Shown here: positions 29,287 to 33,099 of the stretch, piece after piece | Position numbering within the stretch: position 1 is the stretch's first letter | How the letters are laid out: each line of letters opens with the position of its first letter | Assembly: GCA_037721215.1 (NCBI GenBank) | Contig: JBBJNV010000032.1 | Coordinates: 1 to 37,754 of the forward strand | Direction: 5' to 3' | Source: Gemmatimonadaceae bacterium | GTDB lineage: Bacteria > Gemmatimonadota > Gemmatimonadetes > Gemmatimonadales > Gemmatimonadaceae | Length of the DNA: 37,754 nt | Made by a program: the position numbers and the translations under genes | Notes under the pieces: generated by a model | Databases searched by the model: none | What the model was told of the DNA's origin: nothing | The model's input: the letters and a program-made list of their open reading frames with translations, nothing else

Positions 29287-30008
29287 CAGGCAGGGCAAAG
29301 CTGGCGGGAGCGAGCGCAATTGTCTGTATCGGCTCCGGCAGCGGCGCCTCGGCGCCGCTCGATGCTGCGCGCGAAGCGGCAACCGTGGCGGCACGGCATC
29401 CGGCATTCATCTGGTGGACGGCAGGGGTACACCCACATGACGCTGCGGGGTTCGACCCCGCACAGCACATTCCTGAACTGCGGCAGATGATTCTCGCGGG
29501 TGCGGTGGCGGTTGGCGAGTGTGGGCTGGATTATCACTACGACAAGCTCCCCCGCGCAACGCAGCGTAAAGCATTCGAGGCGCAGTTGAGTCTGGCTGGC
29601 GAGCAGCGCGTGCCAGTGGTCGTGCATACGAGAGACGCGGAAGACGATACGGCATCGATGGTTGCGGATGCCGGACGCGCGGGCGTCAGAGGTGTTCTTC
29701 ACTGCTACACGGGTTCACAGTCGCTAGCAGAGGTGGCGCTGCAGGCGGGATGGTACATCTCATTCAGCGGCATCGTCACTTTCAAGAAATGGAGCGGTGA
29801 CGATCTCGTACGGTTCGTTCCAGGAGATCGGATTCTGGCAGAATCGGATGCGCCGTATCTTGCACCAGTGCCGAGGCGGGGAAAGCGGAATGAACCTGCC
29901 TGGGTCTGCCATACGGTCGCGCGGCTGGCCGCCGCCCGCGGTATCCCTATCGGTGATATGGGAATCGCGGTCAGCGAAAATGCGAGGCGGCTGTTCAGTC
30001 TGGCGTGA
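29196..30008 (+). CDS. tatD: TatD-family metal-dependent hydrolase
   Basis: A 270-residue TatD/YcfH-type deoxyribonuclease or phosphoesterase. The metal ligands H15 and H17 lie in FVDSHAHLADPAF, the glutamate in AVGECGLDYHYD, another His in VVHTRDAEDD, and the Asp in LAESDAPYLAPVP. I chose the ATG at 29196, five residues before the fold begins; the open frame extends much further upstream inside secF but is not coding there. The overlap with secF is 91 bases. It precedes ridA by 57 bases. Confidence 0.9.
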   Translation: MAEEDECIAGFVDSHAHLADPAFAGDRDEVAGRAKLAGASAIVCIGSGSGASAPLDAAREAATVAARHPAFIWWTAGVHPHDAAGFDPAQHIPELRQMILAGAVAVGECGLDYHYDKLPRATQRKAFEAQLSLAGEQRVPVVVHTRDAEDDTASMVADAGRAGVRGVLHCYTGSQSLAEVALQAGWYISFSGIVTFKKWSGDDLVRFVPGDRILAESDAPYLAPVPRRGKRNEPAWVCHTVARLAAARGIPIGDMGIAVSENARRLFSLA

Positions 30009-30065
30009 AGGCCCTCTCGGCGTGTAACATTGCCGGGCATTCACCTTAACCCGCAGAGGTCCTAG

Positions 30066-30446
30066 TTGCACCAGATCACAAGTGACGATGCACCCGCTGC
30101 CATTGGGCCCTATTCACAGGCAGTAATTGCTAAAGGATTGTTGTTCTCGGCTGGTCAGATTGCGCTCGATCCGGCAACTGGTCAGCTCATCGACGGGGAT
30201 ATCTCGATGCAGACCGAGCGAGTGATGCAGAACCTGATGGCGGTGCTTGCTGCAGCGGGGCTCGATTGGCGTGATGTTGTGAAAACGACTGTGTATCTGC
30301 ACGACATGTCGCACTTCCCGCTTGTAAATGAGATTTACGGTCGGGCGCTCGGCGATGCGCGGCCTGCACGGTCGACGGTCCAGGTGACTGCGCTCCCGCG
30401 TGGTGGCCTGGTGGAGATCGACCTCATTGCCACGGTGCGTCCGTAG
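30066..30446 (+). CDS. ridA: RidA/YjgF family enamine/imine deaminase
   Basis: A 126-residue RidA that hydrolyses reactive enamine/imine intermediates such as 2-aminoacrylate from serine and threonine dehydratases. Family blocks are APAAIGPYSQAV, SAGQIALDPATG and GDARPARSTVQV; the key Arg is R102 and the key Glu E117. The start is TTG directly after an in-frame TAG, with AGAGG six bases ahead, so no longer start is possible. It ends 13 bases before selD. Pairing with selD is probably coincidental, although both handle reactive small molecules. Confidence 0.92.
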   Translation: MHQITSDDAPAAIGPYSQAVIAKGLLFSAGQIALDPATGQLIDGDISMQTERVMQNLMAVLAAAGLDWRDVVKTTVYLHDMSHFPLVNEIYGRALGDARPARSTVQVTALPRGGLVEIDLIATVRP

Positions 30447-30459
30447 CTGCGGCAGAAAA

Positions 30460-31530
30460 ATGAGCACGTCGAGAACCCGGGACGAAATTTTCCGTCTTAC
30501 GTTGTTTGCGCGGTGCGCTGGTTGAGCGTCCAAAATGGGTCCGGGTGACCTGTCCGCGGTGCTTGATCCTCTCCCCTCTGTCACCAATCCGCGGCTTCTC
30601 GTAGGCCGCGAGACCTTCGACGACGCCGGCGTATACCTGCTGTCTGACGATATTGCTCTGGTTCAGACGGTCGATTTTTTCGCGCCGATAGTTGACGACC
30701 CTTACGACTTCGGGCAGGTCGCGGCTGCCAACGCACTGTCGGATGTGTACGCCATGGGTGGTCAACCGCTTACTGCGCTGAACATCGTGGCATTTCCCAC
30801 AGGCGAGCTCCCGTTGTCGGTGCTGACGGAGATTCTGCGCGGAGGGCAGGACAAGGTGCACGAAGCGGGGGCCAGTATTGTTGGTGGCCACACTGTGACC
30901 GATGGGGAGCTGAAGTACGGATTGTCGGTAACCGGGCGTGCGCATCCGGCCTTTCTGCTCACAAACGCCGGGGCAGCCCCGGGCGACCGGCTCGTGCTGA
31001 CCAAGGCACTTGGGAATGGTATCCTGGCGACGGCGGCGAAGCGCGCCTCTGCCGGCGACGCTGCCATGCAAAGCGCTGCAACGCCGGTGCGGATTGCCGC
31101 GATGGTCGAAGGCATGAAAACATTGAACGGCGCTGCCAGCCGCGCAGCGTTGGCGGTCGCCTCGAAATGCGCCACCGATGTCACAGGTTTCGGTTTGCTT
31201 GGCCATGCGTCTCATATCGCGCGCGCGAGCAACGTTACAATGCGAATTCATGCCGCGTTGGTGCCGGTGCTCGATGGAGCGGAGGACTGCTGGAGGGCCG
31301 GTGCATCGAGCGATGGGTTGAAGCGGAACGCAGCTTACGTCGAACAACTCGTTGAATGGCGTGGCGTCAGCGAGTTTCATCAGGCGTTGCTCTGCGATCC
31401 GCAGACATCAGGCGGTTTACTTGTCGCTGTGCCCCGGGATCGTACCACTGACTACCTTTCGCGAATGACCGGCGCCACTGAAATCGGGGAAGTGATGGAG
31501 CGAGAGAATGCTGCGATCGTGGTTGACTGA
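30460..31530 (+). CDS. selD: Selenide, water dikinase (selenophosphate synthase), selenocysteine-containing
   Basis: SelD makes selenophosphate from selenide and ATP. The real frame begins at ATG 30460, 13 bases after ridA, and gives a 356-residue protein in which TGA 30523-30525 is residue 22. The context RLTLFARCAG-U-ASKMGPGDL lines up with E. coli SelD LTQYSHGAG-C17-GCKISPKVL, so the TGA falls exactly on catalytic Cys17, and Lys25 matches Lys20. The rest is a normal SelD: LSDDIALVQTVDFFAPIVDD, ALSDVYAMGGQPLTALNIV, IVGGHTVTDGELKYGLSVTG and the DPQTSGGLL motif near the end. A start at the later ATG 30535 would lose the active site. A tRNA-Sec gene follows 7 bases after its stop. Confidence 0.93.
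30526..30557 (+). promoter_or_regulatory. Candidate bacterial SECIS element
   Basis: Just after the TGA, ATGGGTC (30535-30541) can pair with GACCTGT (30547-30553) to form a 7-bp stem including G-U pairs, with a CGGGT loop at 30542-30546. The loop starts 16 bases after the TGA and has G at its second position, which fits the published spacing and loop rule for bacterial SECIS elements. The outer bases 30526-30528 could also pair with 30555-30557. SelB binding cannot be judged from sequence alone. Confidence 0.65.
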
Positions 31531-31537
31531 TGAATAC

Positions 31538-31634
31538 GGGGGTGGATGGAGCCTGGTGGCTTCCCCAGTCTTCAAAACTGGTGTGACCCGACCAGGTCGG
31601 GCCGGGTGGGTTCGATTCCCACACTCTCCCGCCA
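31538..31634 (+). tRNA. selC: tRNA-Sec, anticodon UCA
   Basis: Anticodon stem CCAGT/ACTGG (31565-31569, 31577-31581) holds the loop CTTCAAA with anticodon TCA at 31572-31574. The D arm has a 6-bp stem (31548-31553 with 31558-31563) and a TGGT tetraloop, as in E. coli selC. A long variable arm (31582-31605) forms a strong stem CCCGAC/GTCGGG. The T arm is GTGGG-TTCGATT-CCCAC, and CCA is encoded at 31632-31634. The 8-base acceptor arm (31538-31545 with 31623-31630) has one G-U and two mismatches, U43/U25 and G45/A23. It follows selD by 7 bases and is probably cotranscribed with it. SerS would charge it with serine for conversion by SelA. Confidence 0.92.
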
Positions 31635-31666
31635 TCCGACGGTTCGCGGCATTCGCGTTGATTTGC

Positions 31667-32299
31667 ATGGGTTCCCATACATTCTTTTCCGCCGTCGCCG
31701 GTGCACAGAGAGTTGACAGCACACGCGTGAAGCTCGGCGGGGAGATTGGCTGCGTTCCGATTCCAAAGGATTCTCTCGAGGGAGTGGGCCCGCGCGTACT
31801 CATCGCGGGACCTCCCGGACGTAGAGGCCCGCTGTGCAAAATACCTATTTCGCCGCGGCGGGCATTTATCACATCTCTGCTCGTTCCGGGCCTGGGTCAG
31901 TCGCGGCTGGGCCGCTCGAAGGCCGCGAAGATGTTCGGCGCCATAGAATTGGGGGCGATCGCAATGTCCCTCAAATCACTCAACGACCTGAGCAATGCGA
32001 AGGATGCGCGAAGCGATACTGTTTCGGTTCCGCGCCTCGACCCCGTCACCCAGAATCCTGTCCTCGACCCAGTATCCGGGCTGCCCATATTCATGAGCGT
32101 TCCACGCAATCCGAATCTTGCGGATCGCGTCAGAGCACGCCGCACTCATCTCGAGGACTGGCTCGCCGCGATTGCCTTCAATCACCTCTTCGCCGGCGCC
32201 GACGCATTTGTCGCGGCAAACCTTGCCGATTTCGACGCAAACGTGAATACGACGTCAGCCGGAATTGATGTGCGGGTATTGGCCCGTGTTTCCTGGTAG
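31667..32299 (+). CDS. DUF5683-like predicted exported protein
   Basis: A protein of about 210 residues. The hydrophobic start GSHTFFSAVAGA followed by QRV looks like the end of a signal peptide. The body has FITSLLVPGLGQSRLGR, a helix AAKMFGAIELGAIAMSL, and the C-terminal FNHLFAGADAFVAANLADFD, which resemble the DUF5683 pattern seen in Bacteroidetes (signal, PGxGQ segment, DAhV helix). The start is uncertain: ATG 31667 and TTG 31658 give a poor signal peptide, whereas the frame is open back through the tRNA-Sec. The true start might be a rare codon near 31634. The function is unknown. It overlaps the region where murI must begin. Confidence 0.6.
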   Translation: MGSHTFFSAVAGAQRVDSTRVKLGGEIGCVPIPKDSLEGVGPRVLIAGPPGRRGPLCKIPISPRRAFITSLLVPGLGQSRLGRSKAAKMFGAIELGAIAMSLKSLNDLSNAKDARSDTVSVPRLDPVTQNPVLDPVSGLPIFMSVPRNPNLADRVRARRTHLEDWLAAIAFNHLFAGADAFVAANLADFDANVNTTSAGIDVRVLARVSW

Positions 32300-33099
32300 A
32301 TAGATCGGCGCCGATCGGAGTATTCGACTCCGGCATCGGGGGCCTCACGGTTGTCCGGGAACTCATGCGTCAACTCCCGAACGAAAGCATCATTTACTTC
32401 GGGGACACCGCGCGTGTCCCGTATGGTCCGAAGAGTCCACAGACCGTCGTGCGGTACAGCCGGGAGATTACGACCTTTCTCGAGACTCAGGGCGTGAAGG
32501 CCGTCGTCGTCGCCTGCAACACCGCCACGGCCCACGCGCTCCCCACGCTGCGTGGCGAGTATGAATTACCCATTGTCGGCGTAATCGAACCCGGCTCCCG
32601 GGCGGCCGCGCGGGCGACGCGAACCGGAAACGTCGGCGTAATCGGGACGCACGGTACAATCAACTCGCACGCCTACGAGCGCTCGATTGCTGCGGCGACG
32701 CCGGGAGCGCGAATCACCGCACTGGCCTGTCCGCTTTTCGTTCCACTGGCAGAAGAGGGTTGGCTCGAGACTGAAGCCACAAATCTGATTGCGCGTGAGT
32801 ATCTCGCGCCAATGGTGGATGCCGACATCGATACGCTCGTGCTGGGCTGCACGCATTATCCGCTGCTGAAAGGCGCAATCGGAGCGGTTGTCGGTAGCAA
32901 CGTGCGCCTCATAGACAGCGCTGAGGAGACTGCGGCTGAGACTGCGGCGATCCTGAGGGAGAAGGGGATTGATTGCGATACGATCAGGACAGCGCAGCAC
33001 CGCTTCATCGCATCAGATGCCCCTGAGCAATTCCGGCGTGTGGGACAGCGTTTTCTTGGGTCCACGATCGACAGCGTTGAGACAATCACCCTCGGGTGA
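32293..33099 (+). CDS. murI: Glutamate racemase
   Basis: A MurI of about 268 residues that supplies D-glutamate for peptidoglycan. The N-terminal IGVFDSGIGGLTVVREL carries the Asp-Ser motif. The two catalytic cysteines are in VVVACNTATA and VLGCTHYPLL. The later ATG at 32365 would remove the Asp-Ser motif, so the start must lie upstream. In frame after the TGA at 32266 the only candidates are ATT 32278, CTG 32293, or ATC 32314; none is ATG, GTG or TTG. I give CTG 32293, which overlaps the stop of the previous gene. The last 87 bases overlap the opposing phosphoesterase gene. Confidence 0.9.
   Translation: MVDRSAPIGVFDSGIGGLTVVRELMRQLPNESIIYFGDTARVPYGPKSPQTVVRYSREITTFLETQGVKAVVVACNTATAHALPTLRGEYELPIVGVIEPGSRAAARATRTGNVGVIGTHGTINSHAYERSIAAATPGARITALACPLFVPLAEEGWLETEATNLIAREYLAPMVDADIDTLVLGCTHYPLLKGAIGAVVGSNVRLIDSAEETAAETAAILREKGIDCDTIRTAQHRFIASDAPEQFRRVGQRFLGSTIDSVETITLG

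Follow-up and report, generated by a model that had tools for sequence, protein, structure and literature searches.

Among prokaryotic selenoprotein families, SelD is one of the most widespread (PMC13188914). For the tRNA that carries selenocysteine (Sec), an 8+5 fold has been described in bacteria alongside a 7+5 class (PMC5330540). Genes of the sel system located near selC, the gene for tRNA-Sec, are already known from other organisms (PMC5330540; PMC8124441), and in some bacteria selC is nested in, or overlaps, selB (PMC8124441). A literature search for a dedicated description of Sec decoding in Gemmatimonadota found none.

We analysed a stretch of 37,754 nucleotides (the window) from a Gemmatimonadaceae bacterium (assembly GCA_037721215.1, contig JBBJNV010000032.1). 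The sole tRNA that ARAGORN finds in the window is a tRNA-Sec with the anticodon TCA (UCA), ending at position 31634. We take this gene, at 31538–31634 on the forward strand, to be the only selC of the genome, working together with SelA, SelB and SelD in Sec decoding, and we give this explanation as a whole a probability of about 0.93. Direct reading of the sequence identifies a D stem of 6 bp (GGAGCC/GGCUUC) closed by the 4-base loop UGGU, an anticodon loop CUUCAAA, a long variable arm with the stem CCCGAC/GUCGGG and a T stem GUGGG/CCCAC. Eight residues separate the T stem from the discriminator G73 at 31631, which corresponds to 8+5 spacing, and the CCA end is encoded at 31632–31634. The tRNA-Sec identity that a sequence-only reading had proposed from the anticodon, the D arm, the variable arm and the CCA end is therefore borne out by ARAGORN, by the Rfam tRNA-Sec covariance model RF01852 and by direct reading. 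The 13-bp acceptor plus T stem has the expected spacing, with two mismatched acceptor positions, U6.U67 and G8.A66 (31538–31545 paired with 31623–31630), a feature absent from that reading. ARAGORN itself begins the gene at 31536, in a shifted acceptor register; this start was dropped, as the two extra bases vary freely among relatives of the genus. Since the acceptor strand is invariant from 31538 on and the two bases upstream are variable, 31538 is the right start; it had been given as such before, together with the resulting 7-base gap after selD. Positions 31645–31657, just 3′ of selC, hold a weak short hairpin and then a T-containing stretch, and could mark a site of processing or termination.

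The gene upstream is selD, encoding a predicted Sec-containing selenide, water dikinase (30460–31530, forward strand; 368 bits with the NCBIfam model TIGR00476, cut-off 125), whose stop codon TGA at 31528–31530 is followed after 7 bases by selC. This arrangement recurs in relatives. Among 26 named Gemmatimonadota selD loci, two stop at a contig edge, and in all 24 with enough downstream sequence a tRNA-Sec lies directly 3′ of selD; within the genus, all 15 testable genomes show this order too. The gap is mostly 4–9 bases (the 2-base ARAGORN offset applies to these values) and reaches about 40–50 in two loci. On the other hand, 54 selD loci outside Gemmatimonadota all lack a selC directly after selD, and no selD occurs within about 1.5 kb of the selC loci fetched from other Gemmatimonadota families. 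As far as sampled, and judged from gene order, the selD–selC linkage is a trait of the host's family. It forms part of a longer conserved order, secF-tatD-ridA-selD-selC-DUF5683-murI, which in some relatives is interrupted between tatD and ridA by an insert. The forward strand of the window carries ridA at 30066–30446 (PF01042; same position in relatives), a DUF5683-like gene at 31667–32299 (weak PF18935 match, below the curated cut-off) and a murI-like gene of the glutamate racemase family, which ends the block, at 32365–33099 (PF01177); the last two keep their position in most relatives. The true start of the murI-like gene may lie 5′ of 32365. The two genes had been presented as a compact selenium module: selD and selC are indeed linked, but selA and selB are found elsewhere in the assembly, on different contigs.

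Given the 7-base gap and the conserved gene order, selD and selC are likely to share one transcript. Alternatively, a functional selC could have a separate promoter, located within the 3′ part of selD, and be transcribed on its own; the adjacency would then be an inherited gene order devoid of functional coupling. We regard this as possible but rather doubtful. Since the whole block is conserved, selC may simply travel along with its neighbours, and the selC loci of other families that have no selD nearby indicate that linkage is not needed. Against this stand the tightness of the gap in most family members and the failure to find a sigma-70-like promoter in 29900–32100, which is weak evidence because such a search says little for Gemmatimonadota.

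Reading the selD frame from the ATG at 30460 requires one in-frame TGA to be translated as Sec, namely codon 22 (30523–30525) in CAGUASKMGP, within the active site LFARCAGUASKMGPGD. An in-frame TGA is also found in the selD copies of the genus. A standard gene call from the next ATG (30535) would lose 30460–30534, including the catalytic residue. A SECIS-like hairpin with the apical part GGGUC-CGGGU-GACCU (30526–30565, forward strand) can form about 16 bases 3′ of the TGA. Its fold energy is no stronger than that of shuffled sequences (z −0.65), and the minimum-energy fold differs in some Sec-type selD loci. The Gly codon that supplies the hairpin U is GGT in 19 of 19 Sec-type loci compared with 4 of 15 Cys-type loci, in which GGC, GGA and GGG are used as well (Fisher p 5e-6, uncorrected for relatedness). 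This codon bias points to a constraint at the RNA level, as would be expected of a SECIS. When the Sec or Cys state is placed on a 39-row SelD tree, parsimony yields 8 changes, at least 4 of which are forced by well supported branches. Sec and Cys forms of SelD thus alternate among close relatives, with selC still adjacent, and the retention of selC behind a Cys-type selD agrees with the presence of further selenoproteins.

The remaining Sec machinery was sought by profile searches of the genome. Both selA (contig C5, 527 bits) and selB (contig C16, 341 bits) are present, intact and above the curated cut-offs, the latter with the SelB winged-helix domains, so that selA, selB, selC and selD all occur in one Gemmatimonadaceae genome. 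No ybbB was found in the genome, and SelD is therefore not retained for selenouridine. Query-based searches for selenoprotein genes revealed four further candidates, members of the AhpC-TSA family with a TGA at the redox site (contigs C29, C8, C2 and C19), in the contexts GUTREAC (PrxQ-like), KGUT, UMGC and GUINC, the last in a thioredoxin-like protein with a long C-terminal part; Pfam confirms the GUTREAC, KGUT and UMGC genes as family members. The PrxQ-like TGA is retained in 10 of the 15 genus genomes that have a match. In-frame UGA stands where homologues have Cys in these four genes and in SelD, of which Cys-type relatives are known. In the molybdopterin (FdhA-type) and CMD/AhpD families of the genome no internal TGA was seen. 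The idea that SelD is the sole selenoprotein, the machinery serving only itself, was dropped in view of the four TGA-containing redox genes. One genus genome in 530 contigs has the PrxQ-like in-frame TGA, while neither selD nor a strong tRNA-Sec was found in it, probably owing to an assembly gap. Taken together, the intact selA and selB, the lack of ybbB, the UGA of SelD and the four UGA-containing redox genes indicate that the host very probably decodes Sec. The sequence-only reading had made the same claim from selD and selC, and the genes it named for a check, selA, selB and other TGA-containing genes, are those now found.

In the mechanism we propose, selC would most likely be transcribed together with ridA and selD and then released from the common RNA by tRNA-processing nucleases. 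SerRS would load the tRNA with serine, SelA would convert this to Sec using selenophosphate derived from SelD, and SelB would bring the Sec-tRNA to UGA codons that have a SECIS hairpin behind them; these roles are established for the protein families and are inferred in the host from gene presence. Sec is predicted in SelD itself and in no fewer than four proteins of the peroxiredoxin/thioredoxin-like type. The position of selC beside selD would link selenophosphate supply to that of the tRNA which this compound modifies. An elaborate version, which we consider improbable, joins two proposals: that selD–selC is a selenium-gated circuit and that the acceptor mismatch of the genus is an adapted recognition element. 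According to it, UGA codon 22 of SelD would be translated only in the presence of Sec-tRNA; otherwise the rest of selD would stay untranslated, polarity would reduce the transcription that reaches selC, and tRNA supply would thus track selenium. The mismatched acceptor stem would serve recognition by SelA or SelB, or exclusion of EF-Tu.

The mismatches could also be taken as signs of a decaying selC that has lost its function, as could an RF01852 score below that of the best relatives (70.5 vs 85 bits). We find this very improbable. The acceptor strands, GGGGGUGG and ACUCUCCC, do not vary within the genus and leave U6.U67 and G8.A66 unpaired. This invariance in 15 genomes, whose SelD proteins are only 65–78% identical, argues against decay, as do the retention of selA, selB and several UGA-containing genes and the absence from the genome of a second selC as replacement. 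Position 6 is paired (C-G, U-A or U.G) in all other parseable selC of Gemmatimonadota, and position 8 is commonly mismatched across the phylum (G8.A or G8.G), a further point against decay. Because the spacing remains 8+5, the selC of the genus does not belong to the 7+5 class (PMC5330540).

As for the genuine selC that we favour, RF01852 matches 31538–31630 over all 91 model positions with 70.5 bits (E 1.3e-12; curated cut-off 47 bits), the only match above the cut-off in the whole genome. Most of the lower-ranked matches are to tRNA-Ser genes or further ordinary tRNAs, and two scoring tRNAs near selA and selB are ordinary tRNA-Ser rather than tRNA-Sec. Although the same model gives tRNA-Ser genes of the host up to 46.9 bits, the runner-up score, the proposal that a tRNA-Ser or a chance tRNA-like sequence was mistaken for tRNA-Sec is excluded for practical purposes by the ARAGORN call, the RF01852 scores, the UCA anticodon, the 6-bp D stem, the 8 residues between T stem and G73, the alignment with relatives and the family-conserved position of the gene.

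A Sec-decoding trait had been thought unexpected for this phylum, which the wider survey contradicts. A strong tRNA-Sec (E below 1e-10) is present in about 280 of 395 Gemmatimonadota genomes, or some 70% by hand count. This threshold was preferred to the RF01852 cut-off, passed by 314 of the 395, as the latter count is likely inflated by near-cut-off tRNA-Ser. Judged from these genomes, Sec decoding occurs commonly in Gemmatimonadota, and some genera, among them genera of the host's family, have lost it. Our verdict is that the locus contains a real selC, conserved in the family beside a Sec-containing selD, in what is very probably an ordinary Sec-decoding organism. A complete Sec-decoding system is hereby documented in Gemmatimonadota; the picture of Sec synthesis is unchanged. 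The family-wide linkage makes co-expression of selD and selC testable, and SelD, which naturally changes between Sec and Cys next to a constant selC, offers a comparative system for what retains or loses Sec.

Compared with bacterial tRNA-Sec as modelled in RF01852, the selC of the window is alike in the UCA anticodon, the 6-bp D stem with its 4-base loop, the long variable arm, the T stem–G73 distance and the encoded CCA; the selC of the genus differs by the mismatches U6.U67 and G8.A66. Relative to Sec-containing SelD elsewhere, the host's family stands out in that the Sec and Cys forms alternate while selC stays beside selD. In contrast to the known sel clusters that include selC (PMC5330540; PMC8124441), selC here follows selD in surroundings of ridA and murI, and selA and selB are elsewhere. 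A further parallel is the selC that lies within or overlaps selB (PMC8124441): there, too, tRNA-Sec is attached to a sel protein gene at its 3′ end, suggesting linked expression, whereas in the present case the partner is selD and the two genes do not overlap.
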